Of a stretch of 50,256 bases of DNA, positions 30 through 50,256 are shown piece after piece. Every line of letters starts with the position of its first letter. Within the stretch, counting starts at the first letter, position 1. Source of the DNA: a virus; the IMG/VR virus record IMGVR_UViG_3300007038_000011, positions 1-50,256 of that record, one strand, 5' to 3'. The notes under the pieces were generated by a model, which was given only the letters and a program-made list of their open reading frames with translations, did not search any database and was not told where the DNA came from. A program made the position numbers and the translations under genes.

Positions 30-473
30 ATGCAAGAGACCCGATACCATCGACTTTTGTACGCCCTCGAATCGGACGCCGGTTGGACGTGTCAGGATAC
101 GATCGATCTGTTTTTCGGGGTCGTCCTCGAGCATTGCCCCGACGCCTTCGTCGATCGGCTTGTCGAGGTCGCCGGAGACCGTTTCGACTGGACTCCCGAC
201 ACGCTGGAAGGCCGAAGCGGCGTCGACCTCCAGGAGGCCGAACTCGAGGCCGACACGACCAGCGGGCCGGGCCCCTCGGCCGGTGACGTCGAGCGGGCCG
301 TCGAGATTGTCCGACAGTGGCGCCGGGACGCCCGCGGGGAGGGCGACATTCACCACACCAGACGGGCCCCCCAGCGGGTCCGCGCCTTGTCCCTCCTGGC
401 CGAGCTGGCCTTTCGGGACGAGCTCCCGCCCGACCTATTGGAGCCTCTGACGGCCGACGAGGTGCAATCGTGA
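30..473 (+). CDS. hypothetical protein (147 aa)
   Basis: I do not recognise a family. The protein is acidic and looks soluble and mostly helical, with no membrane segment or signal peptide. The ATG follows the CCA repeat with no SD visible, so either the true upstream leader is missing at the contig end or translation depends on the repeat. Its TGA overlaps the GTG of the next gene, which marks it as the first visible member of a rightward operon. If the genome is circular, that operon continues from the genes at the right end. The reading frame is well supported by GC-rich third positions and by the coupled stop/start. Confidence 0.7.
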   Translation: MQETRYHRLLYALESDAGWTCQDTIDLFFGVVLEHCPDAFVDRLVEVAGDRFDWTPDTLEGRSGVDLQEAELEADTTSGPGPSAGDVERAVEIVRQWRRDARGEGDIHHTRRAPQRVRALSLLAELAFRDELPPDLLEPLTADEVQS

Positions 474-715
474 TTGACCGTCCCCGACCAATGCGCGTCT
501 CGTTCTACGTCCGCGGGGCCGACGAGCCGGTCGCCGAGTTCGGCCCCGGGACCAACAACCGCCCGATCGCCCAATTGCCCCACAAAGGGGAGGCGCTGGC
601 GCTATGCGGCGACGAATACGTCGTCGTCGATCGCTACGCCGTCATCTATCCGACAAAAGACGTCGATTTCTGGAAGGTAACCGTCGAGGAGCGCCCCCAT
701 GCCGATCAGTCGTGA
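470..715 (+). CDS. small hypothetical protein (81 aa)
   Basis: I do not recognise it. I chose the GTG at 470 because it overlaps the preceding stop (GTGA), the usual coupling in this genome; an internal ATG at 491 is an alternative. The sequence alternates short hydrophobic and charged stretches, as expected for a small beta-rich domain. The end of the gene overlaps the next CDS by 17 bases. It lies in the early rightward group of small genes, which in phages often encode host-takeover factors, but nothing in the sequence shows such a role. Confidence 0.6.
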   Translation: MIDRPRPMRVSFYVRGADEPVAEFGPGTNNRPIAQLPHKGEALALCGDEYVVVDRYAVIYPTKDVDFWKVTVEERPHADQS

Positions 716-1316
716 GCTCGAGCAATGCTATCCCGACAACTGGCAAGAGATCCGCGCTGCGGTTCTCGAGCGGTCGACCGACAAGGAGGTCGACTTTGTC
801 CGAGGGTTGGCCGAATGGGGCAACGACCCGCCCGACGTCGACGACTCTCCGCCCCCGACCGACGACCTCGACGACCGGCCCCGTTGCGAATGGTGCGGGG
901 CCCCAAACAAAACCCGGTTGTTTCGATGGGAGCGTTATTGGTCGTTTGCCGGAAACGCGCAATGGTACGGCCCGGCGGGCGGCGAGGCGGTCTTTCACGG
1001 GGAAGTGCCGGCCCCGTCAGACGTGCGCAGAACCGAAATTGTGTTGACCACCGCCCACCTCTGCCATTTCCCGCCGTGCGAAGACCTTGGCCACCTCCGG
1101 GCGCTCTGCCAGGCGTGCCACCTCTGGTATGACGGCCGCCCCCGCCAGCGGGAGGCCCGGGAGTCGATCACCGCCGAGCTGGCCGGCCAGACGACCCTCT
1201 TTGATTCCCGGACAAACGGGGGCCGGGAATGCCCCCACCGAGGGGCCGACATGTCGGTCGACGAGAAGACCGGCGCGGTAAAAGTGCGGCGCGAGGCCCG
1301 GGAGGCCCGTCGATGA
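699..1316 (+). CDS. HNH-like protein with zinc-binding cysteines (205 aa)
   Basis: The middle of the protein has a CEWCGAPN knuckle near residue 67. About 60 residues later comes an LTTAHL stretch, followed by LRALCQACHLWYD. This is the order seen in small phage HNH-type proteins: a first CxxC, an AH-L strand carrying the first active-site His, then a CxxCH that closes the zinc site and the beta-beta-alpha fold. The N-terminal third is acidic and proline-rich, and the C-terminal tail is basic. HNH enzymes nick or cut DNA. As it sits far from terminase, a homing, defence or host-DNA-damage role is as likely as packaging. The gene overlaps both neighbours. I infer the family from motif spacing only. 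Confidence 0.6.
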   Translation: MPISRELEQCYPDNWQEIRAAVLERSTDKEVDFVRGLAEWGNDPPDVDDSPPPTDDLDDRPRCEWCGAPNKTRLFRWERYWSFAGNAQWYGPAGGEAVFHGEVPAPSDVRRTEIVLTTAHLCHFPPCEDLGHLRALCQACHLWYDGRPRQREARESITAELAGQTTLFDSRTNGGRECPHRGADMSVDEKTGAVKVRREAREARR

Positions 1317-1768
1317 AATGGATCACCGCTAGTTCGATGAACATCGCCGACGGGGCCGACTGGTGCCGTTGGGTCCCCTTCAAGCGGAGCCATCGCTGCG
1401 GGGAATGCGGAGCTCTGTGCACCATGATCTCCCCGGACGTGCCCGCCGACCCTTATCCGACATGCAAGGCGTGTGACGACGACGTCGAGGCGGGGGCCGT
1501 CCGGGCGGTCGTCGACTTCGATCCACGCCACGGCGTCGGCGGCCGAAACACTTCAGTCGTCGTCTTTCGGGAAACGATCCGGTGGAAACAGGCTATTTTC
1601 GCTCTGTGCAACCTGGTCGATACGCCTCGGAGCCGGGCGTCCCTGTTTCGTGAATACTACAAGGCGGGCCGACTTCGGCGGGCGGAGGTCGACGGTAACC
1701 CGTGCCTCGACTTTATCCGCTTTCGGCGGCTTTGGTTTGGGTATGAACATAACCGATCACGGCTTTGA
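1313..1768 (+). CDS. hypothetical protein with two CxxC pairs (151 aa)
   Basis: The ATG overlaps the preceding TGA (ATGA). The N-terminal half has a CGECGALC motif and about 25 residues later CKACDDD, which together look like a four-Cys zinc ribbon. The C-terminal half is basic and aromatic-rich and could bind nucleic acid. I recognise no catalytic motif or family. It follows the HNH-like gene directly and may work with it, but that is only a positional inference. Fifteen bases separate it from the next start, which has its own strong SD. Confidence 0.6.
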   Translation: MKWITASSMNIADGADWCRWVPFKRSHRCGECGALCTMISPDVPADPYPTCKACDDDVEAGAVRAVVDFDPRHGVGGRNTSVVVFRETIRWKQAIFALCNLVDTPRSRASLFREYYKAGRLRRAEVDGNPCLDFIRFRRLWFGYEHNRSRL

Positions 1769-1783
1769 CACCAGGAGGCCACA

Positions 1784-2221
1784 TTGACTGACTACACCGA
1801 AATGAGCACCGAAAACCTTCTGCTATTGCTCGAATGGGAAGCCAACTCGGGCAAGCCAGTCGACGATCAGAAAGCAAAGCGGCTCCTTTCGGCCGCCGCC
1901 GCGCGGATCGAACACTTCGTCGGTATGCTCGAGGACTCATCGGCCGTTGCCACGCTGCAAGCGGCCAGCCCGAAGCGCGAAGAGGCGGCGGCCGACCTCG
2001 ACGGGATAGCCAAGCGTATCCGGGCCGGAGAGCTCGACGTCGTCGCGGTGGCCGGCGTGGAATCCGACGACCACGGAGGCGGCTCAATCTGGGCCGTGGA
2101 ACCGGCCCAACCCGACTACAATATCGATCAGCTAATCGGCGCGCTGGCCGTTATGCGGCACGCCCTCGCCGAGCGTTCCTACGAGGCCTCCGACGACTTC
2201 GATCCAAACCCCGACAAATGA
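1784..2221 (+). CDS. hypothetical protein (145 aa), TTG start
   Basis: No family recognised. The TTG start is set by a strong SD in the conserved leader form ACACCAGGAGG a few bases upstream. The first 70 residues look like an amphipathic helical bundle; the rest is acidic with a short Gly-rich break. No Cys cluster, membrane segment or known motif is visible. The stop overlaps the ATG of the next gene, so the two are probably translated together. Confidence 0.6.
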   Translation: MTDYTEMSTENLLLLLEWEANSGKPVDDQKAKRLLSAAAARIEHFVGMLEDSSAVATLQAASPKREEAAADLDGIAKRIRAGELDVVAVAGVESDDHGGGSIWAVEPAQPDYNIDQLIGALAVMRHALAERSYEASDDFDPNPDK

Positions 2222-2502
2222 CCATGCCGAACCGATACCGACAACAACTCCCCGATCGCCTGGTCGACGCCGTCGACGACTACCTCGAGGCCCGGCCGCC
2301 ACGGCCGTCGGAGACCTCGAGCCGGTGGAAGCGCACCGCCGGCGCCTATGCGACGACGGTGAAATACTTCCGCATCTGGAAGTTTGAGGCCGCCCGGCGG
2401 CTTGCTCAATCGGCCAACCCGGAGACACCAGCCGATCACCTTCAACGTGCCATCTACGTCGAGGCCGCCCGGGCAACCGGCCGGCTCGAGGAGTTCGGAT
2501 GA
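2218..2502 (+). CDS. small hypothetical protein (94 aa)
   Basis: No family recognised. The start at 2218 (ATGA overlap) gives M-T-M; a second ATG at 2224 is possible. The protein is basic and rich in Arg and Tyr, with two predicted helices, so it could bind nucleic acid. It overlaps the next gene by four bases and is part of the tightly packed run from 1784 to 2840. Confidence 0.55.
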   Translation: MTMPNRYRQQLPDRLVDAVDDYLEARPPRPSETSSRWKRTAGAYATTVKYFRIWKFEAARRLAQSANPETPADHLQRAIYVEAARATGRLEEFG

Positions 2503-2840
2503 ACGTCCAACGCCGATACCGATACCAAAAGGGCGACACTGAGATCGTCCGATCGTCCGACCACCTCCAGGAGGCGGCCCGCCGGATAAAGTCGGCGGCG
2601 ACCGACGCCAAAGGGCGCACACCAGACGCCCCGACGATCTCCCGGATGAAACACCGGTGCGGTCTGGCGCTGCAAAGATTCGACGCCGAGCTCGCCGACT
2701 ACCTGGCGATCCGCGTCGAGCCCGACGACGGCCGCCTCGAGCTTCGAACCGGGCCGGCCTCTGGCGTAACGGTCACCCTCGAGAAGCGGGCCAAGCCGTC
2801 CGACCCGTGGCGGGTCGTCCGCGAACACACAGCCGATTAA
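2499..2840 (+). CDS. hypothetical protein (113 aa)
   Basis: No family recognised. It starts with an ATGA overlap. The N-terminal half is basic and helical; the C-terminal half alternates hydrophobic and charged residues like a small beta sheet. It is the last gene before an internal promoter-operator block, and its stop codon forms part of the first operator palindrome (TTAACCCG at 2837). Transcription entering from upstream can therefore be separated from transcription starting at 2851. Confidence 0.6.
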   Translation: MNVQRRYRYQKGDTEIVRSSDHLQEAARRIKSAATDAKGRTPDAPTISRMKHRCGLALQRFDAELADYLAIRVEPDDGRLELRTGPASGVTVTLEKRAKPSDPWRVVREHTAD

Positions 2841-2879
2841 CCCGGTCGGGTTGACTTGGTGGCCCGCTCGGGTTACCGT
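2837..2879 (+). promoter_or_regulatory. promoter with two overlapping operator palindromes
   Basis: The -35 is TTGACT (2851-2856) and the -10 is TACCGT (2874-2879), 17 bases apart. One palindrome, TTAACCCG-GT-CGGGTTGA (2837-2854), runs into the -35. A second, imperfect one (CCCG-CT-CGGGTTAC around 2863-2876) fills the spacer and touches the -10. The second has the same geometry as the operators in the divergent region at 44641-44743. A repressor bound at either site would block RNA polymerase. Confidence 0.6.
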
Positions 2880-2885
2880 TGCGGT

Positions 2886-2899
2886 GTGGCAATTGCCAC
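2886..2899. promoter_or_regulatory. perfect 14-bp palindrome in a 5' leader
   Basis: GTGGCAATTGCCAC lies just downstream of the promoter at 2851, about where transcription should start. Its sequence differs from the TAACCCG operators, so it may bind a second regulator or form a hairpin at the 5' end of the transcript. Confidence 0.4.
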
Positions 2900-2935
2900 G
2901 GGCCGACAATCGTTACCGTAACGGAGACACCAGGT

Positions 2936-3256
2936 ATGTATCCCGAAATTTGCCAGATCCTTCGAGAAGTCCTCGGCGCCGACCTCTTCGGCGACGTGCG
3001 AATCGATCAGGGCGACGACTTGGTCGCCGCCCGCTGGACCAACCCCGACGAGCCGGCCGAATACGTCGACGTCGTCGTCGACCTCGAGGCCCGGGAGGTG
3101 ACCAAGGGGATCGGCGTGGCCGGGTGCCCCGGCGACGTCGACGGCCGTTTTTTGGCCGCCCGCGGCCGCCTCGAGTTTGAGCTCTTCGGGGCCCGCGACG
3201 ACGGCGGCGACACGGCCGCCCCCAACGCGACGACGACCAAGCGGCGCGCCCGCTAG
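2936..3256 (+). CDS. acidic hypothetical protein (106 aa)
   Basis: First gene after the internal promoter. The ATG follows the leader GGAGACACCAGG; a longer upstream reading would run through the promoter region and is rejected. The protein has about 80 acidic residues with alternating Asp/Val strands, then a basic tail (TKRRAR). I recognise no family. Being the promoter-proximal gene of an operator-controlled unit, it may be made early or on derepression. A strong GC-rich hairpin follows at 3265-3297. Confidence 0.6.
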   Translation: MYPEICQILREVLGADLFGDVRIDQGDDLVAARWTNPDEPAEYVDVVVDLEAREVTKGIGVAGCPGDVDGRFLAARGRLEFELFGARDDGGDTAAPNATTTKRRAR

Positions 3257-3264
3257 TCCGCACC

Positions 3265-3297
3265 GCCCGCCGGGGACCGTTGAGCGGCCCGGCGGGC
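3265..3297 (+). other. intercistronic hairpin
   Basis: A perfect 10-bp stem, GCCCGCCGGG with CCCGGCGGGC, encloses 13 bases. No T-tract follows, so it is not a standard intrinsic terminator. It may protect the 3' end of the upstream message or cause pausing. Confidence 0.5.
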
Positions 3298-3341
3298 ACA
3301 TTTCACCCTCTGAAGCATTTCAACCGACACCAGGAGCCATC

Positions 3342-3887
3342 ATGTCCGACGACGACCGGGGAAACGACAACTGGCGCAAAATCACCGTCGACGAGATCAA
3401 GAAAATCCGAAAGCATTTCGAGGAGGCGGGTCGGGACCGCAACTGTAAGGAGATCGTCGCCCGCGTTCTTAGGGCCGTTGAAGATCGACGAGACGACGAC
3501 TTGCCGGCGCCCGTATACAACATCGGCGACGTCGTATTCCAAAAGCGGCCCGGCGGGGGCGAAACGCTCGGGAAAGTGTCCTCGAGGAACTACGTAAATC
3601 ACTGGAAATACGGCGTGACGCCGATTGAGCCGAACCAAAAAACCGACAACCCGCTCGCGGTAAACAAAACGAGCGGGGAGTCGGGCTCGAGGTCTCATTC
3701 GTGCGACTTGCGCCGCCCCGAGCCCGGGCTTGAGCGGCTCCGGGCGTATCTCTTGGCGTTGAAAATCGAACGCGACCGGGCCGAGCTCCGCTTCGATCGA
3801 CTGGACTCGGAATGCGCCCGTATGGTCAAGGCGTGGCAAGTCGCCGACGGTGTGCGGTCGAAGCTCGACGGCTTCACGACCGAATAA
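3342..3887 (+). CDS. hypothetical protein (181 aa)
   Basis: No family recognised. The ATG at 3342 follows the leader ACACCAGGAGCC. The first 70 residues are helical and charged. The centre (about residues 64-110) reads like a small beta barrel followed by a Ser/Gly-rich linker. The last 60 residues form a likely coiled coil with heptad leucines. A 13-bp hairpin lies inside the gene (3643-3684) at the linker. The layout suggests a two-part protein that dimerises through its C terminus. Confidence 0.6.
   Translation: MSDDDRGNDNWRKITVDEIKKIRKHFEEAGRDRNCKEIVARVLRAVEDRRDDDLPAPVYNIGDVVFQKRPGGGETLGKVSSRNYVNHWKYGVTPIEPNQKTDNPLAVNKTSGESGSRSHSCDLRRPEPGLERLRAYLLALKIERDRAELRFDRLDSECARMVKAWQVADGVRSKLDGFTTE
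3643..3684 (+). other. hairpin inside a coding region
   Basis: CCGAC-aa-CCCGCTCG pairs with CGAGCGGG-ga-GTCGG around a 12-base A-rich loop, and an A6 run precedes it. The element sits in the linker part of the gene at 3342, where coding constraint should be low. It could be a pause or mRNA-processing site. Confidence 0.4.
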
Positions 3888-3916
3888 CGCGCCCCGAGCG
3901 ACCTCAGGAGGTGAAT

Positions 3917-4271
3917 TTGGAAACGCTAGACCTATTCGCAGAACTCGACACGGGCGACGAGACACCGGCCGATTATGTCGGCCCGCTTGAAGCGCCCCCC
4001 GGTCCCGCCGTCCGAGGATCGTTCATGGGTTCGGGTTTCGGAGCTTTCGATCTACCTCGAATGGCTCGACGAGATCCGCGAGCTATTGGCACGCCACGGC
4101 GATCGGGCGGTAGAGGCATGGATGCGCCCCGTTGCGCCGGCCGACTTGGCCGACGAACTTCGGGCCGTCGCCGAAGCCATTGTCGAGCTCGCAGAAAACC
4201 TCTGCGCAGTCGCCGACGCCGTCGAACACGCTGAACATTGGACCGATCAAATAATGGGCGGTCGACGGTAG
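3917..4271 (+). CDS. hypothetical protein, frame broken at a C6 run
   Basis: A strong SD (AGGAGG) five bases upstream sets a TTG start at 3917, opening METLDLFAELDTG. That frame loses sense after a run of six C at 3995-4000. Removing one C joins it smoothly to the frame ending at 4271, giving a natural sequence through APPVPPSEDRSW into a helical region with a WLDEIRELL stretch. An ATG at 3975 could start the downstream part alone, but it has no SD. The joined protein would be about 117 aa, of unknown function. A one-base sequencing error is more likely than a natural frameshift. Confidence 0.5.
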
Positions 4272-4299
4272 GCCGCTAGACTGGAAACAGGAGACACCG

Positions 4300-4779
4300 A
4301 TGCAAGAGCTAATCACCGAACCTAAAAGCGCCCCCGACCTCGTGCTCGTCGGTTGCGGCAAGGCCAAGCGCGACGAAATGTCGGAGGCCCGCGACCTCTA
4401 CACCTCGACGCTCTTCGCCAAGAGGCGCACCTACGCCGAAGCCTCCGGCGCCCCCTGGCGGATCCTCACGGCCCACGGCGCGGCGCTATTCGAGCCCGAC
4501 GACCTCGTCGGCCCCTACGATCGCGAGATCAGTCGACTAGGGGACCTCGAGCGGGAGCGATGGTCCGCGGCCCTCGAGCGTCGGATCGACCCGCTGCTCG
4601 ACTCGCTCGACGACGGGGACGGTCAGATCATCATTGAGGTGCACGCCGGCCGCCGCTACGCCGAGGCGTTCGTCGAGGCCGCCGGCCCGGCTCTGCTACG
4701 ACACCGGTGCCGTGTGATTCACCCGGTCGGCGGGCTTCAGATCGGTGAGCAATTGGCGTGGTACACGCGCCAGGAGTAG
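4300..4779 (+). CDS. DUF6884-like protein (159 aa)
   Basis: The N-terminal LVLVGCGKAKRD, the following YTSTLFAKRRTYAE, then WRILTAHGAALF and VGPYD match the pattern I associate with the DUF6884 family common in phages and actinobacteria. In that family a short Cys-containing strand (S/GC.K.K), a Y.S..F helix and an ILSA.hG loop are conserved. The biochemical function of the family is not known to me. Length is typical. The ATG follows CAGGAGACACC. It is the last gene of the left rightward operon, directly upstream of the gene-free structured segment. Confidence 0.6.
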   Translation: MQELITEPKSAPDLVLVGCGKAKRDEMSEARDLYTSTLFAKRRTYAEASGAPWRILTAHGAALFEPDDLVGPYDREISRLGDLERERWSAALERRIDPLLDSLDDGDGQIIIEVHAGRRYAEAFVEAAGPALLRHRCRVIHPVGGLQIGEQLAWYTRQE

Positions 4780-5140: not shown

Positions 5141-5205
5141 CCCGCCCGTACCTGGTGTGATTCGTCGGCCCGAATCCTTCCCAAAAACGGGCGGGTTTTT
5201 CTATT
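5141..5205 (+). terminator. intrinsic terminator of the rightward operon
   Basis: CCCGCCCGT (5141-5149) pairs with ACGGGCGGG (5187-5195) as a 9-bp stem, followed directly by TTTTTCTATTTCTT. The 37-base loop holds a smaller TCG..CGA stem. It ends transcription coming from the left operon; the opposite direction lacks a T-tract. Confidence 0.7.
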
Positions 5206-5449
5206 TCTTGTGCCTCCGGCCGGCCTTATCCCCCTCCCTGGTCGACATGGCAACCCACCAGACGGCCGTTGATAGGGCGCCGACGGTCAACACCGCGACG
5301 GCCGTCCCCGCCGACGCTCCGGCGGCCACGGCGGCCGCTTCACTCACGGGGCGAACGAGCTGATAGGTGCCGGCCGTCGTCGTTGCGACGAGCCCGGCGG
5401 TGGCGAAGAGCAAGAATCCCCAGAATAAAACGGTGATCAGATACCTCAT
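5201..5449 (-). CDS. small two-helix membrane protein (82 aa)
   Basis: The start at 5449 is an ATGA overlap with the upstream gene. Two hydrophobic segments are clear: residues 3-23 (LITVLFWGFLLFATAG) and about 36-60 (Ala/Val/Thr-rich). A short basic tail ends RRHKK. It is the last gene of the leftward lysis/membrane cluster. Size and topology fit a holin, antiholin or small inner-membrane accessory. No family is recognised, so the role is inferred from position. Its stop codon lies within the T-tract of the opposing terminator. Confidence 0.55.
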   Translation of the reverse strand: MRYLITVLFWGFLLFATAGLVATTTAGTYQLVRPVSEAAAVAAGASAGTAVAVLTVGALSTAVWWVAMSTREGDKAGRRHKK

Positions 5450-9721: not shown

Positions 9722-10699
9722 TCATGATCCGAGCGCCGGATAGGCTACCACACCAACCCGGCCGTCGGTCGACGTCAGCGTGACGGCCAGCCGATCGAAG
9801 AATGCCAGACTCGACAACACCTCCGTCCAGTTTTCGGTGAGGTCGAACGCCCCCCCGTTGTTGACCTTCGACCAATTGCCAGTTACGGCGTTTCGCGCCC
9901 AGAACTCAACGCCCTTCACGTCGGTCGCCTCGGCCGACACGTCGAGGGCGGCCGAACCGCTCGAGTTGTCGGCGATGGTGAAGTCGGCGGCCGAATGTGT
10001 GGCGTCGAGCGACAGATCGCCCGACACCGACAAGGTCACGTCCGTTTGTCCGGCCGGCTCGACGAGTATCGTGTAGTCGCCGCCGGCCTCGGGCTCGAGG
10101 TCGGCGTTTACCGGGGCGCTCGAGGCGTTGAGGGCGTCGACAATCCCCTCGGCGATCGACTGGTAGTCGGCCCCGGTGCCCGCCGACGTGTAGTCGACGG
10201 CGTAGACGTCCGATGGTGTCGTGACAGTGACCGTGTAGGTCGTCGAGTTGGCGACCGTCGACACCGAAATGTGCGACCATCCCCCTTCGATGGTGATCCG
10301 GTCGCTTTTGCCGTCCCCGTCGGTGTCCTCGAGGACCGCGCGCACCGGCTCGGCCATCTCGTGCACGTCGTCGGCGACCAGCTTCAGGATTTCGGCGACC
10401 GTGGCGTCGGCGTCGGACGCCTGGCTCGTCGTCGTGCCGTTGATCGTGAGCCCGTAGCCGGTCGAATCGACGACCGCATCGACTTTCACGAAGGCCTTTC
10501 GCCGGCGCGGGTCGTCCCGGAGCTGGACCTCGACGGCCGCGGCGTGTGCCTGGCCAATGTCGGCCCCGTCGGCGCCCTCCGGGGGATAGGGGAGCCCCCC
10601 GGACACAATCGGCGACTCCTCCAGATCGTGCAGTGTGCGCACGACCGGCCCGTCGCCGGCGTTGAGCCTGGTGATTTGTGCGAGCGTTTTGTCGCCCAT
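9722..10699 (-). CDS. tail-fibre-like protein with repeated beta domains (325 aa)
   Basis: The first 60 residues look like an attachment region. At least two beta-sandwich-like repeats follow, each with a TYTVTV-type strand, an 'IAEGIVDALNAS'-type helix and a closing strand. The same strand-helix-strand pattern occurs inside this phage's sheath and decoration proteins. The C-terminal part (VKGVEFWARNAVTGNW to the end) looks like a separate tip domain. It would sit on the virion surface, probably for host contact. SD GAGGA precedes the ATG. Confidence 0.5.
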   Translation of the reverse strand: MGDKTLAQITRLNAGDGPVVRTLHDLEESPIVSGGLPYPPEGADGADIGQAHAAAVEVQLRDDPRRRKAFVKVDAVVDSTGYGLTINGTTTSQASDADATVAEILKLVADDVHEMAEPVRAVLEDTDGDGKSDRITIEGGWSHISVSTVANSTTYTVTVTTPSDVYAVDYTSAGTGADYQSIAEGIVDALNASSAPVNADLEPEAGGDYTILVEPAGQTDVTLSVSGDLSLDATHSAADFTIADNSSGSAALDVSAEATDVKGVEFWARNAVTGNWSKVNNGGAFDLTENWTEVLSSLAFFDRLAVTLTSTDGRVGVVAYPALGS

Positions 10700-10744
10700 C
10701 GGTCAATCCTCGTCGTAGGTGGTGAGTGCCGCGCTGGTCGCAGA

Positions 10745-12043
10745 TTAGGGCAACGTGTCGCCCAGATACAGCACCACGATCGTGAAGTCCCCGTCGGCCG
10801 CCGATGCTCCCGAGTCGTTCGACTGGACGTCGATCTCGGCGATCCCGATCCCGTTGTCGACAATTTCCGCGGCCATTTCATTCGACTCGGCCTTGACGGC
10901 CGACACGATCGGGATCACGGCATATTGCCCGTTGGTCAAGTTGTGGTCGCGGTCCAGAGTCAGCGTATAATCGCCGGTGGCGTTGTAGGTGACCGACCCG
11001 AACCCCTCCTCATCGCCGAAGCTGGCCGAGCTCCCGGCCCCGTCGACGTCGACGTATGCGGCTGCGATCGGGGTCAAGAGTGATTCGATGATTGTGTCGC
11101 GCTCGCCCCCGTCTTTGACGGCCATGCGCGCCCCGGAATGAATGTCGGCGTGTTCGACGCCGACCCGGTTGCCAGCGTCGGCCCCGTCGGGGTGCCCAAG
11201 AAATTGAACGATCCCGCCGTTGGAGGTGACGGGGTTGACGACGTCGGCCAGGAGGTGCGCTACACCGAAGGCGCCCCGATTTGAGAAGTCCTCGTTGAAG
11301 AGCTCGAGCCACGGCCGGCCGCCCGAAAAGTTGCTTTGCCGGAGTACGTAGTCATCGGCCCCCGAGACCGCCCAGCGAAAGACGGTGTCGATCTTGGCGG
11401 TCAACCTGGTCGTGAGGTTGAGCGTCGATAGGTGCGTTTCCATCATCGTCCGTTTGTCGTCGACGTCGGCCGGCTGAACGGCCACTTGCCCCGAGGGGCG
11501 GGTCACGTCGGCGACACGGATCCAACTGGACGACGGGGCCGACGGGGCCGACGGCGACCCGCCGGGGGCTCCCTCGACGACCTCGACGTCGAACTCCTTG
11601 GCGACCGTCTGCTCGGCCTCGTCGGCGTATTTCGACCCGTCGTCGGGGTCCCGGAAATAGACCGTCTCGGCGTCGGTGCGGTTTTCCGTCGGCCGGATGA
11701 ACACCGAGTCGATCCGCGGGTTGGCATCTTGGTTTTCGGTGAACGAGACCGGCTGCTCTTGGGTAATCAGGATCGGCTTGACGTCCGACTTGTAGTCGTC
11801 GCCCTCTGCGGTCTGCTCGGCCAGCACGAGCCCCGGCTGAAGGTCGATCGACGCGCTCCCACCGGGGGCGTCGGGATAGGCGGCGCGGCCGATGAATCCC
11901 TGGCCGAAGTTGTTGTCGCGGTCCCGCATGAGGCCCCAGAGGACCGCGGCGACCGTCGCCCATGCCGATTTAGCGAGGTCGTTGAGCTTGCCCTCTGTGA
12001 GGGCCTCGTTGGCGTTCTGCAAGATACGTCGAATGCCGATCAT
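10745..12043 (-). CDS. tail fibre or distal tail protein (432 aa)
   Basis: It follows the gpI-like baseplate gene with an ATGA overlap, the usual place for fibre genes (gpH in P2). The N terminus is helical, then a segment with FGQGFIGRAAYPD and LVLAEQ. The rest is beta-rich with a Ser/Pro linker and an acidic C-terminal domain. I recognise no receptor-binding signature. It is probably the fibre or fibre base attached to the wedge, with the protein at 9722 as a second surface component. Confidence 0.55.
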   Translation of the reverse strand: MIGIRRILQNANEALTEGKLNDLAKSAWATVAAVLWGLMRDRDNNFGQGFIGRAAYPDAPGGSASIDLQPGLVLAEQTAEGDDYKSDVKPILITQEQPVSFTENQDANPRIDSVFIRPTENRTDAETVYFRDPDDGSKYADEAEQTVAKEFDVEVVEGAPGGSPSAPSAPSSSWIRVADVTRPSGQVAVQPADVDDKRTMMETHLSTLNLTTRLTAKIDTVFRWAVSGADDYVLRQSNFSGGRPWLELFNEDFSNRGAFGVAHLLADVVNPVTSNGGIVQFLGHPDGADAGNRVGVEHADIHSGARMAVKDGGERDTIIESLLTPIAAAYVDVDGAGSSASFGDEEGFGSVTYNATGDYTLTLDRDHNLTNGQYAVIPIVSAVKAESNEMAAEIVDNGIGIAEIDVQSNDSGASAADGDFTIVVLYLGDTLP

Positions 12044-37158: not shown

Positions 37159-37451
37159 TCCAGACGCCCGCCGTAGGCCCGGAAGGCGCCGACCATCACG
37201 AGGGATATGGTCTGAGATACGCCCCGGGCCTCGGCCGGCGAAAGGGGCCCGGCGTCGTGGGCGACCAGCTCCGCCAGCTTTCGAGGGTGCCCCGGGGGCG
37301 GCCCGTCGTCGGCGGTCGTCACCATAAGTGCGGTCGTCGGAAGGGCCGCGCAGAGCGACCAGTAGCAGAGACGGCGATACGCCTCGGGGTCGGCACCATC
37401 GGGGGTGCGCAACAGACGAATTTCGACGGCGTGATCAGTCGGTTGAATCAA
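37155..37451 (-). CDS. small hypothetical protein (98 aa)
   Basis: TTG start (37451) with AGGAGG nine bases upstream. It overlaps the end of the methyltransferase gene by 17 bases. Mostly helical, with 'YRRLCYWSLCAALPTTALMVT' in the middle and 'LSPAEARGVSQTISLVMVGAFR' near the end, so it may be weakly membrane-associated or a helical bundle. No family recognised. Confidence 0.45.
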   Translation of the reverse strand: MIQPTDHAVEIRLLRTPDGADPEAYRRLCYWSLCAALPTTALMVTTADDGPPPGHPRKLAELVAHDAGPLSPAEARGVSQTISLVMVGAFRAYGGRLD

Positions 37452-38211
37452 AGCGGAGGGCCTCCTGGCCGAGCTTGCGGTCGCGTAGCGTACAGCCGGA
37501 CTCTTCGGCCTCGAGCCGGTCGGACGCTTGGTCAAAGTATCGCTCTTGCATTTCGTAGCCGATGAATCGGCGGTCGTTGAGGATCGCGGCCACGCCGGTC
37601 GTCGCCGATCCGGCGTAGGGGTCCAAGATGGTCTCGCCGGGCTCGGTGAAGTCCTCGACGAGGTCTGAGAAAAGCCGGAGCGGCTTCTGTGTCTCGTGGA
37701 ACCGCTCGTCGCGGCCGATCTGCGAGTTGGCGACGTTGCACGACCAGATCGCGGCCGACCCGCCGTTATTCCACCGCTTGCGGCCCGGCGGGTGCATGAT
37801 CGCGATCCCTTCGCCGGGCACGCCGGGACGGTCCCCGGTGAATTGCGGTGTGGGGTTGGTCTTTCTCCAGAATCCCGCCCGGATCCAACGCTCCTCGCCG
37901 GCGGCGGCCGCGTAGTCGCCGAGTTGCTCGAGGGCGCACATACAGACGACCCACCGGCCGGCGACCTCGAGGAGCGGGCGGACAATGTCGGCCGGGTCGA
38001 TCGGGTCGAATGACTTCGGGGCCGACTCGCCTCCTGGTGACGTCGTTTTCGTGTCGGGATCCCACGAGCCCCGGCGGCCGTTTTTGTGGGTCCGTTCGTC
38101 GTAGGGAGGATCGGATAGGACGACGTCGACGTCGAGGTCGTCGAACGCCGGGTCGTCTTGCCACCGGCCGAGCCGCATTTCCCAATTGTTGCCGTGTCGG
38201 GATTCAACCAT
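37435..38211 (-). CDS. DNA methyltransferase, beta-class N6-adenine/N4-cytosine (258 aa)
   Basis: Catalytic motif SDPPYDER (33-40) comes first, and the SAM-binding motif LDPYAGSATTG (196-206) last, with the linking HETQKP (172-177). That order defines beta-class enzymes such as RsrI and CcrM, which methylate adenine N6 or cytosine N4. The target recognition part is short. It overlaps the cytosine methyltransferase gene by eight bases. With no restriction endonuclease partner in the window, it probably protects phage DNA from host restriction or regulates phage DNA. Confidence 0.8.
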   Translation of the reverse strand: MVESRHGNNWEMRLGRWQDDPAFDDLDVDVVLSDPPYDERTHKNGRRGSWDPDTKTTSPGGESAPKSFDPIDPADIVRPLLEVAGRWVVCMCALEQLGDYAAAAGEERWIRAGFWRKTNPTPQFTGDRPGVPGEGIAIMHPPGRKRWNNGGSAAIWSCNVANSQIGRDERFHETQKPLRLFSDLVEDFTEPGETILDPYAGSATTGVAAILNDRRFIGYEMQERYFDQASDRLEAEESGCTLRDRKLGQEALRFDSTD

Positions 38212-39062
38212 CTTGCACCTCGTCGTCTAACTCGAGATCGACAGTGACCGGATCGTCATACTTTTCGTTTTGCGCCCAATACCAGACGCAGCCGGCGACA
38301 AAGGATTGCAGTTGCAACCGCCAACTGTGCGGGGACTTGGGCCTCCCCGAGGGCGTCCCATTGACGAGATAGCCGACCGGTATCCCCATCAACCACTCTA
38401 CGAACCGGGGATTCAGTGTTCCAGAAGCATCGCCAGCCCTCCTCTTCACTTCCGTGAGGAGCCCATTGCCAGATTTCGCCGATTGCTTCGAGGATTGATA
38501 AAGCCCTTTCTGAGTTGTCGGCGTCGGCCACGTCGACGGCCCCGATCCAAAGTCGATCGCGTCGGTGCGGCGCGCCAATGGCTGAAGCCGGAAGGCAGAG
38601 CCATGCAACGCGATACCGCAGCGCGGCCAAGTCCCGGAGAAGTCGCCCGAAAAACTGGTGAGACCGGGCAAGGAGCCCTGGTACGTTTTCCAGGATTGCA
38701 ACCGGGGGCCGAGACTGGCGAAGGCATCGCACCGTCTCCCCCCATAGTGAACCGCCTTTCTCGGGTTGACCGCGGTTCTCTGTGTTGGACGACGACCACG
38801 GTTTGCAAGGGAATCCGGCGGTGAGCAGATCGCACCTCCCCCGAAACGGCCGTGCGTCGAAGTTTCGCACGTCGCCCCAAATCGGAGCCTCTGCGAGCCA
38901 GCCGGCCCGCATGCGGTCCCGGAGGATCTCTTGTTTGTAATCGTCGTTCTCGACGTAGCACACCGGCCGCGCTCCGAGGGCTTGTGAGCCCAGCACGCCG
39001 GCGCCGATTCCAGCAAACAAAGCCAATTCGCGAATGTACGGGATTCCGGGATATAGGCCCAT
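38204..39062 (-). CDS. C5-cytosine methyltransferase, two alternative C-terminal frames
   Basis: The N-terminal frame is secure: LFAGIGAG (15-22), FPCKPWS with catalytic Cys86, ENVPGLL (125-131) and APHRRDRLW. At C4 (38540-38543) two readings are possible. Frame A continues to 38256 with VRRVVDG and LGEAQVPAQLA, like the usual RvvdG and LGNgqVP ends. Removing one C gives frame B, with STWPTPTTQ and LNPRFVEWLMGIP, also a family signature, ending in an acidic tail at 38204 that overlaps the next gene by eight bases. Local GC is lower and codon use differs from neighbours, suggesting transfer. Frame B looks favoured. Confidence 0.65.
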
Positions 39063-44049: not shown

Positions 44050-44580
44050 TCAGTCGACGACGACTTCGACGTTTTGGCGCGCCTCGACGGCCGCCCGGCC
44101 CTTTCCATTGTCGAGCTCGAGGTCGAACACGGTGTCATCGTGCCCCGGGATGATCTCGGTGATCGTCCGGGTGCCGGGACTATCGCCCCCACTGTGCGAA
44201 AATTTGACAACGACGACGTCGCCGACTTCGAGGTCGCGGCCGGACTTCTGGGCGAGCGTCGAGTCGATCGACGGTTCCCGGCTACATGATTCGGCGTGCA
44301 CCGGTGTCGCCCCCTGCGGCCACTGGTATTCGCATTCGTCGCACACCTCGAGCCCGTCGGGAATGTCCCGGGCCCGTTCGCGAAGTCGAATCTTGCAGCC
44401 GGCCACGAGCCGACCCTTATCCAACTGAAAGAGCGCCGCGGCCTTTTCGACGGTGGTGTCGAGGACCTTGATTGAATCCTCGACGTCGAGTTCGAAAAGG
44501 GCTTCGGCCGCCGTGTCGATCAAGCGGTCGCAAATGGCCAGCGTGTCGTCGGAAAGTTCGTCTTTCGAGTAAGTCGTCAT
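44050..44580 (-). CDS. acidic protein with zinc-knuckle-like motif (176 aa)
   Basis: First gene of the leftward unit. ATG at 44580 with leader ACACCAGGTACAACC. N-terminal helical part 'LAICDRLIDTAAEALFELDVEDSIKVLD', then 'CKIRLRERARDIPDGLEVCDECEYQW', and 'HAESC', giving a possible C-x2-C...H-x3-C zinc site. The C-terminal part is a small beta domain (VGDVVVVKFSHSGGD). It may bind DNA or RNA. Being the first gene from the leftward early promoter, it may be a regulator. Confidence 0.55.
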   Translation of the reverse strand: MTTYSKDELSDDTLAICDRLIDTAAEALFELDVEDSIKVLDTTVEKAAALFQLDKGRLVAGCKIRLRERARDIPDGLEVCDECEYQWPQGATPVHAESCSREPSIDSTLAQKSGRDLEVGDVVVVKFSHSGGDSPGTRTITEIIPGHDDTVFDLELDNGKGRAAVEARQNVEVVVD

Positions 44581-44640
44581 CGGTTGTACCTGGTGTGTCA
44601 GTTGAAAGGTTGTCGGCCCTAATCCCGTCGCCGGGCATCC

Positions 44641-44669
44641 TTTGTAACCCGAGCGGGTTACGCCGTCAA
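44641..44669 (-). promoter_or_regulatory. leftward early promoter with operator
   Basis: On the minus strand TTGACG (44669-44664), 17 bases, then TACAAA (44646-44641). The spacer is filled by GTAACCCG-AG-CGGGTTAC (44644-44661, + strand), whose 8-bp arms are perfectly complementary. It would drive the genes from 44580 downward and be silenced when the operator is bound. Confidence 0.7.
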
Positions 44670-44714
44670 GCGCCCGATACGGAATTGGGCGCCGGCTAAC
44701 CTCGACAACACGAC

Positions 44715-44743
44715 TTGCAATCATAACCCGGCCGGGTTAAGGT
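44715..44743 (+). promoter_or_regulatory. rightward early promoter with operator
   Basis: TTGCAA (44715-44720), 17 bases, then TAAGGT (44738-44743). The spacer contains the perfect 16-bp palindrome TAACCCGGCCGGGTTA (44724-44739). It would drive the recombination and repressor genes from 44810 rightward. The arrangement mirrors the leftward promoter, so one regulator should control both. Confidence 0.7.
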
Positions 44744-44809
44744 CGCCGACCCGTCGGGCAACTGGCGGATCGGGCCGACAACCTCGAATCAACACCACCA
44801 GGAGACACC

Positions 44810-45157
44810 ATGCCGACACGCGATTTCACGCTGAACGGTCTCACCTTCGACTTTCAAATCACGACCAAGCGCCACGGCAACGAGGCGCTTCAAGTCGCCG
44901 GCCATGCCCCCCTTAAAGTCGTGCGGGCGGTACTTCACGAGCTGGCCGACACCGTCCAGCCGGCTCCGCTGGTCTCGAAATGGGATATTCGGTTTCCGAA
45001 CGCCGGCGACGTCGCCGGCGCTTGGGAGGGTCCGAACGGCCACCGGTGCCCGGCATCGGCCCTCACGACCGACCCGGGGCATCCCGACCGTGCGGCGATC
45101 CTTCGGTGCGCCGCGCGTTGTGAGCTACAATCCCGATTGAACGCAAACAAGTCGTAG
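44810..45157 (+). CDS. small hypothetical protein (115 aa)
   Basis: First gene of the right rightward unit. ATG after CACCACCAGGAGACACC. An N-terminal beta-rich part ('FTLNGLTFDFQITTKRHGN') is followed by a helix 'LKVVRAVLHELADTV' and a Cys/His-containing end ('HRCPAS', 'LRCAARCELQS'). It may bind zinc. No family recognised. Its transcript begins at the operator-controlled promoter upstream. Confidence 0.55.
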   Translation: MPTRDFTLNGLTFDFQITTKRHGNEALQVAGHAPLKVVRAVLHELADTVQPAPLVSKWDIRFPNAGDVAGAWEGPNGHRCPASALTTDPGHPDRAAILRCAARCELQSRLNANKS

Positions 45158-45590: not shown

Positions 45591-45845
45591 GTGGAATGTG
45601 CCATTTGTGGGGGCCGGCTGGTCGACGCGCCAACGTCGACCGGGGCCCTCGAGCAATGCGACGACTGCAAGTCGATCACCGTGCCCACCGACCTTCCGAA
45701 TGTCTATTATGAAACGGCCGACCAATGGCTCGACGCCGACCGTCTACAACGCCGGGCCCGTCAGTTGGAGGTCGCCGGCTTGGTATCGCTGGCCGACCAG
45801 ATACGCCGGGTGATTCCGTTTGCGCAAAAACGGCTTGACGACTAA
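45591..45845 (+). CDS. zinc-ribbon protein (84 aa)
   Basis: GTG start (45591) after AGGGAG. CAICGGR near the N terminus and CDDCKS about 20 residues later make a four-Cys ribbon. A helix (LDADRLQRRARQLEVAGLVSLADQIRRV) follows. It probably binds nucleic acid or a protein partner. The last ten bases of the gene form the -35 region of the promoter at 45835. Confidence 0.55.
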   Translation: MECAICGGRLVDAPTSTGALEQCDDCKSITVPTDLPNVYYETADQWLDADRLQRRARQLEVAGLVSLADQIRRVIPFAQKRLDD

Positions 45846-45862
45846 CCCGGCCGTGCTATGGT
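45835..45862 (+). promoter_or_regulatory. promoter with degenerate operator
   Basis: TTGACG (45835-45840), 16 bases, then TATGGT (45857-45862). The spacer contains TAACCCGGCCGTGCTA (45843-45858): the left arm is exact, the right arm differs at two positions. It drives the recombination genes. A weaker operator would be released sooner. Confidence 0.6.
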
Positions 45863-45928
45863 TTGCCCAACCGGGCCACGTCCCGGGCGGGCCGACAACT
45901 CACTTTGTTTCTACACCAGGAGTATCCG

Positions 45929-46984
45929 ATGGTTGCAACGCTATCGCCCGAAGAGATCCCCGAAGAGCACCGATCCGGCTTTGAGCCGGGCCGATGGAAA
46001 GACGTCCCGATTGAGGTGTACCACACCGATCCGGCGATCTCGTCGTCCGGTCTGAAAGACGTCGACAAGTCCCTCCGAACGTACCTGCACGGCCGCCAGG
46101 AGACCGACGACGACCCGAGCGCCTATCAGACCTTCGGACGTGTCGCCCACAAGGCGCTCCTCGAGCCGGACAAGTTCGACCGCGAGCACGTCAAAAGCCG
46201 GCCGCCGAGCCGGCCAGGCGACAAGGGTTGGAGGTCGAATCACTTCGGGACGGCGGCCGCCTTCGCCGACGCCCTCGACGACCAGACGATACACCGCACG
46301 GGCGTCGAAGAGGTCGACGTCGATCAACGCAAGTCGATCGCCGAAGAGTGCCCGGTGTCCGACGGGACGGTACGGAAATACATGAAGATCGACGGCTTCG
46401 AGGACCTCGTCGAGCATTTCGCCCATTGGGGATATGACGCCGACAACGACTTGATTGACGGCGGGGAGCTCGAGCGGGCGATCGCATGCCGAAAAGCGGT
46501 GCTCGACACGGCCGCCGGCGACTATCTGTTTCGCCAGCTCCCGCAAGGCGCCGCCGAACATTCGTTTTGGATGCGCGACCCGGACACGGGGATCATGATG
46601 CGGGTCCGGCCCGACTGGCTCGTCTACGGGCCGAACGGTTGGATCGTCGTCGACGTCAAAACGACCACCGACGCCGGGCCGTTTAAGTTCCGCCGGAAGG
46701 TGTGGCGGTACGGCTACCACCGACAAGCGGCTTTCTACACCGATAATCTCGACGCCCACCTCGGGCCGATCGCCCGATTCGTCTGGTGTGTCGTCGAGAA
46801 AGAGCCCCCCCACGAGGTCGCCTTCTACGAGCCCGAGCACGAATGGGTCGACGACGGCCGGGCCTCCTATCGGGCGGGCCTCGAGCGGCTCGCCGAGTAC
46901 TATCGCGACCCGGGCGGCACCTATCTCGGCATCGGCGATCCGGACACACCGATCGAAGTCCTCACCAAATCGGCCTCGGCGTAG
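45929..46984 (+). CDS. RecE/exonuclease VIII-like PD-(D/E)XK nuclease (351 aa)
   Basis: ATG at 45929 with ACACCAGGAG. The pattern 'IEVYHTDPAISSSGLKDVDKS' and 'TFGRVAHKALLEP' followed by catalytic 'MRVRPDWLVYGPNGWIVVDVKTTTDA' (Asp229, Asp242-x-Lys244) and 'YGYHRQAAFYTD' is that of the phage exonuclease VIII/DUF3799 group. It would chew 5' ends of double-strand breaks for annealing by the next gene's product. Length and position upstream of the annealing-like protein support this. Confidence 0.75.
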   Translation: MVATLSPEEIPEEHRSGFEPGRWKDVPIEVYHTDPAISSSGLKDVDKSLRTYLHGRQETDDDPSAYQTFGRVAHKALLEPDKFDREHVKSRPPSRPGDKGWRSNHFGTAAAFADALDDQTIHRTGVEEVDVDQRKSIAEECPVSDGTVRKYMKIDGFEDLVEHFAHWGYDADNDLIDGGELERAIACRKAVLDTAAGDYLFRQLPQGAAEHSFWMRDPDTGIMMRVRPDWLVYGPNGWIVVDVKTTTDAGPFKFRRKVWRYGYHRQAAFYTDNLDAHLGPIARFVWCVVEKEPPHEVAFYEPEHEWVDDGRASYRAGLERLAEYYRDPGGTYLGIGDPDTPIEVLTKSASA

Positions 46985-47041: not shown

Positions 47042-48508
47042 ATGAGTAACGGAAAATCGAACGTCCAGAGCTACAACGGCGGCGCCGGGAAAGCGGTGCC
47101 CGACAACCCCTTTTCGGGGGCCCAAAACAAGAAGGGCGGACTGGCCAACCCCTTGGGCGAATACAAGCAACAGAAGGCCGAATCGGAAGTGAAGGCCGCG
47201 ATCTTTCTGGCCAAGCAATTCCCCCGCGACCAGGAGGTCGCATACGACCGGATCATGCAAGCGTGTCAGCGCCCCCGGCTGGCCGAAAAGGCGACGTATC
47301 AGTATCCGCGCGGCGGGGAGACAGTGTCGGGGCCGTCGATCCGGCTGGCCGAAACGCTGGCCCTCAATTGGGGAAACCTCGACTTCGGTGTCAGCGAGCT
47401 CGGCCGTGAAAACGGTGAGTCGACCGCCGAGTCGTATGCTTGGGACCTCGAGACGAACGTGCGCCAGTCGGTGACCTTCCAGGTTCCCCACCAGCGCAAA
47501 GCCTACGGGAACATTCAGTCGGTCGACGACCCGCGGGACGTGTACGAATTGGTCGCCAACATGGCGGCCCGCCGGCTTCGAAAGTGTATCCTCGGCGTGA
47601 TCCCGGGCGACGTCGTCGATCAGGCGGTCGACCGGTGCAAGCGCACGATCGCCGAAGGGGACGGGTCGGTTCCGTTCGCCGACCGGGTGCGCAACATGGT
47701 CCACGGCTTCTCGTCGGACCTCCAGATCCCGGCCGAAGCCCTCGAATGGTATCTCGGCCACGCCCCCGGGCAAATGGGGCGCGAAGAGTTCGCCGAGCTG
47801 GCCGGCGTCTATCAGTCGATCGCCGACAACCATTCATCGCGCGACGACCACTTCGGCGGGTTTTTCGACTCGCGCAACACGACGCCCAAATCGACGCCCA
47901 CGGAGGCCGGCCAGGAGCCGGGCGGCCGGCCGGGCCGTGAGGACAACGGCGCGGGCATCAACGACGCGATCAAGGCGGGCCAGTCGGGCGAAGCCCCAAG
48001 CGGCCAGACGGCCCCCGAGGCCCGCACCTACGGGGACGACGACCAGAGCGACGCGCCGGACGCCGACGCCCGCGACGCCCTCCACGATCACGCCGGCGAA
48101 GTCGCCGACGACGTCGTCAAGCGGGTCGGCAAGCGGGACTTTTCGAACCTCAAAAACTGGACGACGGCCAAGCGGTCGATCGGATCGCTTCTGGGCAAAA
48201 CGTCGGCCGGCGAAAACGACCGGGCCCGCTTCTACCGCGCCATCGGTCTGAAGTGGTGCCGGCTCGCCGACGTCGATCCGGGCGACCTCGAGATCGCCGA
48301 CTCCGATCGGCTTGTCGAGTACCTCCCCCCCGAGGTGCTCGAGTTCGAAGCCGGGCGACTTCGGGATTTGAGCGCCTCCCCGGGCGACGACGGCCAGCTT
48401 TCGCCGCGCGACGAGCATGTATCCGCGGTGGTCTTCCAGGAGCTCAACGACGGCGGGGACGGCCGGGCGACGTCCGATATGTTCGATGGGGATTATATCC
48501 CCCACTAA
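47042..48508 (+). CDS. putative ssDNA-annealing/recombination protein (488 aa)
   Basis: It directly follows the RecE-like exonuclease, as RecT does. The N-terminal 240 residues have 'KAAIFLAKQFPRDQEVAYDRIMQACQRP', 'YPRGGETVSGPSIRLAETLALNWGNLDFG', 'ESYAWDLETNVRQSVTFQVPH', 'DPRDVYELVANMAARRLRKCILGVIP'. I have seen this pattern in phage proteins next to exonucleases and take it as a divergent annealing protein; I cannot name the exact family. A disordered acidic linker (about 280-350) leads to a second helical domain. It would pair complementary strands. Confidence 0.55.
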   Translation: MSNGKSNVQSYNGGAGKAVPDNPFSGAQNKKGGLANPLGEYKQQKAESEVKAAIFLAKQFPRDQEVAYDRIMQACQRPRLAEKATYQYPRGGETVSGPSIRLAETLALNWGNLDFGVSELGRENGESTAESYAWDLETNVRQSVTFQVPHQRKAYGNIQSVDDPRDVYELVANMAARRLRKCILGVIPGDVVDQAVDRCKRTIAEGDGSVPFADRVRNMVHGFSSDLQIPAEALEWYLGHAPGQMGREEFAELAGVYQSIADNHSSRDDHFGGFFDSRNTTPKSTPTEAGQEPGGRPGREDNGAGINDAIKAGQSGEAPSGQTAPEARTYGDDDQSDAPDADARDALHDHAGEVADDVVKRVGKRDFSNLKNWTTAKRSIGSLLGKTSAGENDRARFYRAIGLKWCRLADVDPGDLEIADSDRLVEYLPPEVLEFEAGRLRDLSASPGDDGQLSPRDEHVSAVVFQELNDGGDGRATSDMFDGDYIPH

Positions 48509-48572: not shown

Positions 48573-48890
48573 TTGGCAGAACACGATTTGAAGCGTCTCG
48601 ACGCCATCGGCCACCGGCTCGGCGAATCGGAGGGCGACCTCGAGGTCGTCCGCGACGAGCTGTTCGACCTTTCGAATGAAGAGCGCCTCCGAGTACTGCG
48701 CACCGGCGCCGGCCTCTCGCAAGCGGAGCTGGCCCGACAGATTGACGCCGGAGACCACACCGTCCCGAAATGGGAATACGGCGATCGGACCATCTCGGCC
48801 GAGTACCTCCTCCGGCTGGTGCGGGTGTTCGACGAGGTCTATTCGGACTTCAGGATCGGCGATCTGGCCACGCCGTCCGACGACGAATAA
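48573..48890 (+). CDS. XRE-family transcriptional regulator (105 aa)
   Basis: TTG start set by ACACCAGGAGACACCA. After a charged N-terminal 30 residues, residues 36-90 form an XRE helix-turn-helix ('VLRTGAGLSQAELARQIDAGDHTVPKWEYGDRTISAEYLLRLVRVF'; helix 2 LSQAELARQI, helix 3 DHTVPKWEYG). Such proteins bind short palindromes as dimers. It lies in the unit controlled by the TAACCCG operators and is the only DNA-binding regulator found nearby, so it is the first candidate to bind them. Confidence 0.7.
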   Translation: MAEHDLKRLDAIGHRLGESEGDLEVVRDELFDLSNEERLRVLRTGAGLSQAELARQIDAGDHTVPKWEYGDRTISAEYLLRLVRVFDEVYSDFRIGDLATPSDDE

Positions 48891-49642: not shown

Positions 49643-50247
49643 ACACGACCGATCTGATAGCTCTGGGCCTCCTGGCCGCGCTGGGGCGCCGCGCCTCGGC
49701 CGTCGTCGAGGCCGTCGAGGTCGGCATGCCCGACGACAAGCTCGAGGCATGGGGCGACATGTACGAAGTCGGCCCCGAGGTGCCGGCGCGCCGGGCGACC
49801 ATCGGGTTTCTCGAGGTCGTGATCGGCCGGCTCCTGGCCCGCGGGGCAAGCCCGCTATTTGTGGCCGAGGCCCTCCAGTCGACCCGGTGCCTCTGGGCAT
49901 GCCCCGAGCACGGGTCGCTCGAGGAGGGGCAACTGGTCGTCCACGGGCCCCCGAAGTTCGTCAACGTCGTCGCCGACACGACCGGCATGGAATGCTATTC
50001 GTCGATTGAGGCGGCCAAGCTGGGCGCCGAGCCGGCTGGCCTCTTGCCGGCCCCCGGTGAAGAGTCTGGCGCGTCTTTCCGTCGAAGTGACTGGCATTGT
50101 GAGGAGTGCGGCTGGCTCGGCGCTGATCTCGACGTTCATTCGGTGTCTGACATTGATCGCTGGCCGCTTTGCCCGCGCTGCGAGTCCCGTGTCGTCGACC
50201 CGGCCGCCGACAAACTCACCAGGGAGCGCCAGAAGCGCGCCCGGTGA
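49639..50247 (+). CDS. protein with two zinc knuckles (202 aa)
   Basis: ATGA overlap start. The N-terminal 100 residues are helical (LIALGLLAALGRRASAVVEAVEVG); the middle has CPEHGS; the C terminus has CEECGW and CPRCES about 30 residues apart, a zinc ribbon, then a basic tail. Its stop lies inside the terminal inverted repeat. If the genome is circular the next gene is that at 30. Confidence 0.6.
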   Translation: MNTTDLIALGLLAALGRRASAVVEAVEVGMPDDKLEAWGDMYEVGPEVPARRATIGFLEVVIGRLLARGASPLFVAEALQSTRCLWACPEHGSLEEGQLVVHGPPKFVNVVADTTGMECYSSIEAAKLGAEPAGLLPAPGEESGASFRRSDWHCEECGWLGADLDVHSVSDIDRWPLCPRCESRVVDPAADKLTRERQKRAR

Positions 50248-50256
50248 GTTTGTCGG
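50207..50256. repeat. 14-bp inverted repeat at the contig end
   Basis: CCGACAAACTCACC (50207-50220) and GGTGAGTTTGTCGG (50243-50256) are exact inverted repeats around a 22-base loop that itself contains GCGC/GCGC. The contig stops on the last base of the second arm. This may be the terminator of the last gene, a foldback assembly artefact, or a true hairpin end of a linear genome. Confidence 0.6.

Follow-up and report, generated by a model that had tools for sequence, protein, structure and literature searches.

Palindromes built into four predicted promoters suggest a shared repressor regulon in an uncultured tailed phage

Introduction

At the level of anatomy, the closest described counterpart of the locus reported here would be the gp33 repressor of mycobacteriophage BPs and its operators. 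In BPs, the -35 and -10 elements of P_R flank the operator O_R, and the 103-aa active form of the repressor, which has five binding regions in the genome, controls four promoters (PMC4557955). A single repressor word that is scattered through the genome and occurs at promoters is also characteristic of the inverted repeats of Streptomyces phage phiC31 and the operators and stoperators of cluster A mycobacteriophages (PMC9283540), where the conserved sites number 18–30 (PMC4557955). In L5, a monomer binds asymmetric sites, which affect elongation as well (PMC9283540). In phage lambda, the palindromic operators O_L and O_R, which overlie divergent early promoters, are tripartite (PMC4557955). 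The literature on inverted repeats, phiC31, and nut/put sites yielded no closer match than BPs.

Here, we analyzed a record of 50,256 bases with 65% G+C from a virus of bacteria (IMG/VR record IMGVR_UViG_3300007038_000011; the whole stretch is called the window below). A first-pass annotation of this DNA had described palindromes in two divergent promoters and compared them with a lambda-type switch with one site per promoter.

Results and discussion

According to a simple gene call, all genes from 5446 to 44580 lie on the minus strand, and all those from 44810 to the right end, together with those from 30 to 4779, lie on the plus strand. Because the gene blocks on either side of the 229-base gap (44580/44810) have opposite directions, this gap is where both blocks start. 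No end repeat that would close the record into a circle was found, so the two plus-strand stretches are only presumed to form one block. An inverted repeat with 17-nt arms, 94% complementary and 16 nt apart, occupies the right end (50207–50256), and the record starts with a run of CCA; these ends may be assembly artefacts. The genes for a tail sheath, portal, terminase, DnaB helicase, replication initiation protein, and exonuclease VIII show that the virus is a tailed phage, whose tail is probably contractile. On the minus strand at 37435–39062, DNA methyltransferase genes of the N6/N4 type (37435–38211) and the C5-cytosine type (38256–39062) lie side by side. The plus-strand gene at 47042–48508 encodes a large protein, the first half of which matches PHROG 3657 (E = 5.9e-92). 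Relatives of this protein are found in phages that infect very different hosts, and some adjoin exonuclease genes, suggesting that it is probably a recombination partner.

The gap between the blocks contains a divergent pair of predicted promoters that resemble the sigma-70 type (Table 1). As the first-pass annotation had stated, the palindrome TAACCCG-NN-CGGGTTA fills the 17-base spacers of both promoters. It is placed in the same way between the hexamers on the two sides: it begins three bases past the -35 element, and its terminal TA doubles as the opening TA of the -10 element. These two copies are the only ones of this palindrome in the window with zero mismatches. Judged by consensus, the rightward promoter is weak (TTGCAA 4/6 and TAAGGT 3/6, 7/12 in total). 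The operator centres are 79 bp apart, which corresponds arithmetically to approximately 7.5 helical turns, so looping between O_L and O_R is not favoured. A dimer bound at either site would cover the spacer together with the start of the -10 element and thereby keep RNA polymerase off, and the pair would control the start of both gene blocks.

Table 1. Positions of the putative regulatory elements and associated genes in the window.
Feature	Position	Strand	Description or basis
Upstream operator TAACCCGGTCGGGTTG	2838–2853		Mismatch-tolerant site scan; putative
Predicted promoter before ORF 2936–3256	2851–2879	+	TTGACT / 17-base spacer / TACCGT; promoter scoring
Spacer operator TGGCCCGCTCGGGTTA	2860–2875		Mismatch-tolerant site scan; putative
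Leader element GGGCCGACAAT	2900–2910	+	Leader alignment, word count
Gene behind two-operator promoter	2936–3256	+	Gene call; function not assigned
First gene, leftward unit	44050–44580	-	176 aa; no family match
Leader element GGGCCGACAAC, leftward unit	44609–44619	-	Leader alignment, word count
Leftward predicted promoter	44641–44669	-	TTGACG (44669–44664), GCGTAACCCGCTCGGGT (17), TACAAA (44646–44641); sequence, promoter scoring
Putative operator O_L	44645–44660		Perfect palindrome TAACCCG-AG-CGGGTTA in leftward promoter; sequence
Rightward predicted promoter	44715–44743	+	TTGCAA (44715–44720), TCATAACCCGGCCGGGT (17), TAAGGT (44738–44743); sequence, scored
Putative operator O_R	44724–44739		Perfect palindrome TAACCCG-GC-CGGGTTA in rightward promoter; sequence
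Leader element GGGCCGACAAC, rightward unit	44772–44782	+	Leader alignment, word count
First gene, rightward unit	44810–45157	+	115 aa; no family match
Predicted promoter before exonuclease gene	45835–45862	+	TTGACG / 16-base spacer / TATGGT; promoter scan and scoring
Degenerate operator TAACCCGGCCGTGCTA, 2 mismatches	45843–45858		Mismatch-tolerant site scan; putative
Leader element GGGCCGACAAC	45889–45899	+	Leader alignment, word count
Exonuclease VIII-like gene behind third promoter	45929–46984	+	PHROG 412, E 9.4e-60; Pfam DUF3799
Cro/CI-type helix-turn-helix (XRE) protein, candidate repressor	48573–48890	+	105 aa, TTG start; Pfam HTH_31, HTH_3

When mismatches were allowed, three further palindrome sites were detected, giving a total of five sites at four promoters; the two additional promoters, at 2.85 kb and before the exonuclease gene, are absent from the first-pass annotation. 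At 2.85 kb, TGGCCCGCTCGGGTTA lies in the spacer in the same register as in the divergent pair, and its centre is 22 bp from that of TAACCCGGTCGGGTTG, whose TTG opens the -35 element and which overlaps the stop codon of ORF 2499–2840. This distance, approximately two helical turns, would permit adjacent dimers to sit on the same side of the DNA, possibly with cooperative binding. Therefore, the proposal of one site per promoter applies to the divergent pair and fails at 2.85 kb, where there are two. The operator TAACCCGGCCGTGCTA overlaps the stop codon of ORF 45591–45845, and its end falls on the TA of the -10 element; its promoter was one of only two promoter-like sites found between 43500 and 49500 in a mechanical scan. 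Both the site at 2860 and that at 45843 carry two mismatches, which are confined to one half-site, and the spacers of the four promoters are 17, 17, 17, and 16 bases long.

Palindrome sites with three or fewer mismatches numbered seven in the window, against an expected 1.97 ± 1.18. When we considered the composite pattern, defined as TTG, 5–6 bases, and a palindrome with two or fewer mismatches that ends in TA, four copies were present in the window, and the mean and maximum in 200 dinucleotide shuffles were 0.0 and 0, respectively. Elsewhere among viral contigs, the exact palindrome occurred in 36 stretches, none with a TTG at the right distance, so these matches were taken as chance. A search for a promoter with half of the palindrome returned two viral contigs, neither of which was related. 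In an unrelated viral contig with 48% G+C (L105, 4923–4944, minus strand), the promoter-like TTGACAAGATAACCCGGTCGGGCATAGT has a partial palindrome that is similarly placed, a resemblance probably attributable to chance.

All five sites are symmetric, overlap core promoter elements, and lie in predicted promoters. The earlier proposal that one protein represses both units is strengthened in that the geometry is repeated at four promoters rather than two, which makes joint control probable. We consider it quite likely that one phage-encoded dimeric repressor jointly represses four sigma-70-like promoters through operators built into them, with the 2.85 kb and pre-exonuclease promoters as members of the same regulon. 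The location of the dyad between the -35 and -10 elements and the imperfect -10 boxes would also suit an activator of the MerR type, which binds in the spacer and twists the DNA for the polymerase. However, MerR-type promoters have spacers of 19–20 bases, and the spacers of 16–17 bases found here, which are of optimal length, place these promoters outside that class. Moreover, the only recognized regulator is of the Cro/CI type, and such activation is very unlikely.

Comparison with related viruses was limited by distance: terminase searches returned six viral contigs with 48–53% identity, and no close relative was present in the collections searched. Searches with the leftward first gene and the XRE protein found no relatives, and a BLAST search of the region against annotated phages gave no match. 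A host search across seven bacterial genomes of one phylum, one of which carries a terminase relative, likewise found nothing. The window palindrome did not occur in the relatives, all of which are distant (approximately 50% terminase identity). Three large relative records (G003, G012, and G002) were studied in full. In G003, which has a 127-base direct end repeat, a different palindrome, GTCGTCAA-NN-TTGACGAC, is present in three copies (6098, 9528, and 10681), one with one mismatch, and each copy lies 0–7 bases downstream of the -10 element of a predicted minus-strand promoter. At two of the three promoters, the -35 region TTGACGAC is itself the half-site. One copy is in a divergent gap (10649–10894), and another lies at the start of an operon that includes a 104-aa XRE gene. 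A divergent gap of G012 contains the two long palindromes GATATACactccgtGTATATC and AATTAGGgaaatttcCCTAATT (5196–5257), one of which meets the -10 element and the other the -35 element of a predicted promoter. Words resembling CCCTAATTTAT are repeated near these G012 palindromes. No repeated promoter palindromes were found in G002. Thus, palindromes at predicted promoters recur in part of this phage group, although their words differ.

When the four window regions were aligned from promoter to start codon, a second feature, separate from the operators, was observed on the same four predicted transcripts. The 10-mer GGGCCGACAA occurs in exactly four copies on both strands of the record, one per palindrome promoter, within the leader and always on the sense strand. 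This word was first noticed in these very leaders, but the shared-word test allowed for any word; the longest word common to shuffled leaders was a 7-mer (20,000 trials), as was the longest common to quadruples of other gene leaders (50,000 quadruples). GGGCCGACAA lies 20–28 bases from the -10 element, 25–29 bases from the start codon when the following pyrimidine is included, and 13–17 bases from the ribosome-site word CACCAGG, which also precedes ten other genes. Its spacing to the start codon is more constant than that to the promoter, which points to, without proving, a role in RNA. Each of the four leaders could be folded into a hairpin, but these folds had no greater stability than those of shuffled sequences and were given no weight. 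Matches to the leader word were found in nine contigs, none of which encodes homologues of the window. Two high-G+C viral contigs that are probably unrelated to the window (L106, 989–1019; L114, 2–32) have GTGGCAGGGCCGACAAC, which contains GGGCCGACAA, in common just past a promoter-like stretch.

To our knowledge, GGGCCGACAA has no counterpart, and it is the least explained part of the system. As a tentative and rather doubtful reading, the four promoters of this phage, in which no lysogeny module was recognized, might be two-layer cassettes: one protein would repress initiation at the spacer operator, and GGGCCGACAA, whose distance to the ribosome site varies less than that to the promoter, would be a second signal at the RNA level, for antitermination or translation, carried by the same set of transcripts. 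The joint recurrence of operator, leader word, and ribosome-site word could also have arisen by the duplication of a cassette, without any common control, and two promoter regions in G003 are near copies of each other. However, the sequence between the conserved elements has diverged in the four window regions, so it is the elements that were retained, and duplication without common control is very unlikely.

In terms of the repressor, the six-frame search identified only one HTH_3 protein in the record, that encoded at 48573–48890. Both of its Pfam matches (HTH_31: E = 1.6e-7, 32 bits, cut-off 27; HTH_3: E = 2.1e-6, 28.1 bits, cut-off 23) exceed the curated cut-offs, which places the protein in the Cro/CI (XRE) family, and its PHROG matches are phage regulators. 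Its structure, predicted from the single sequence, is of modest confidence (mean pLDDT 68.1). As the sole HTH_3 match, it retains the place of best candidate that the first-pass annotation had given it, and it is most likely the repressor. The gene is the second large gene past the exonuclease gene and is not adjacent to the divergent operators but approximately 3.8 kb away, within the rightward block, so repression of this block would curb the production of the repressor as well, as in Cro-like negative feedback.

This distance, and the many phage genes without a family match, would also fit operators that are real but are bound by a different protein, either a regulator of the host or a phage protein that lacks annotation, such as the product of the first gene of a unit. 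On the other hand, the 48573 protein has no HTH_3 rival in the record, the 16-bp dyad suits a Cro/CI-type dimer, and the G003 operon behind a palindrome promoter contains a similar small XRE gene, although the alignment of the two proteins spans only 34 residues, 13 of which are identical. A host binder is further disfavoured by the absence of any excess of the word in the bacterial genome with the terminase relative (G017; 109 forward vs. 165 in the reversed control). A binder other than the XRE protein is therefore a real possibility, albeit clearly the less likely one.

The arrangement resembles the dispersed-operator regulons of BPs and phiC31 in that the same word occurs at several promoters. 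As in BPs, a palindromic operator lies between the -35 and -10 elements of a predicted early promoter, and the candidate repressor is small. However, the 12-bp palindrome of BPs is half of a two-part site, whereas that of the window is a 16-bp dyad. In BPs, moreover, the repressor gene adjoins the switch and immunity depends on integration, whereas the window has a distant candidate, no integrase that could be found, and a shared leader word. The five sites are fewer than those of phiC31 and cluster A and, in contrast to the asymmetric L5-type sites, are symmetric and confined to predicted promoters. The window shares with lambda the palindromic operators over divergent promoters and a small Cro/CI-type protein, but has a single site at each divergent promoter instead of multipartite operators. 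Lambda CI has a cleavage domain, and no CI-like protein was found in the window.

The comparison with a lambda-type switch was not borne out in other respects. A full lysogeny switch like that of lambda or BPs, in which the repressor maintains the prophage, would be consistent with operators over both divergent promoters and with the dispersed further sites, as in BPs (PMC4557955). Nevertheless, searches of all six frames of the record detected neither a tyrosine or serine recombinase (PF00589 and PF00239) nor the S24 domain of a CI-type repressor, although these absences are not final, since part of the genome may be missing from the record. Furthermore, no lysogenic promoter was identified, neither a repressor gene nor a repressor promoter was found at 44.6 kb, and the XRE gene lies well inside the rightward unit. 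A full lysogeny switch is thus unlikely, and because of the missing S24 domain and recombinases, early shut-off by the proposed repressor is at least as likely as lysogeny.

Conclusions

The original observation is confirmed and enlarged, and the leader word is the element left unexplained. The kind of phage switch is familiar, and its parts are unusually tidy. For an uncultured phage group, this provides a clean, testable regulon in which the operator, the target promoters, and a candidate repressor can be named from the sequence. The quite different promoter palindromes in two distant relatives would fit a fast turnover of repressor specificity while the virion module is conserved.
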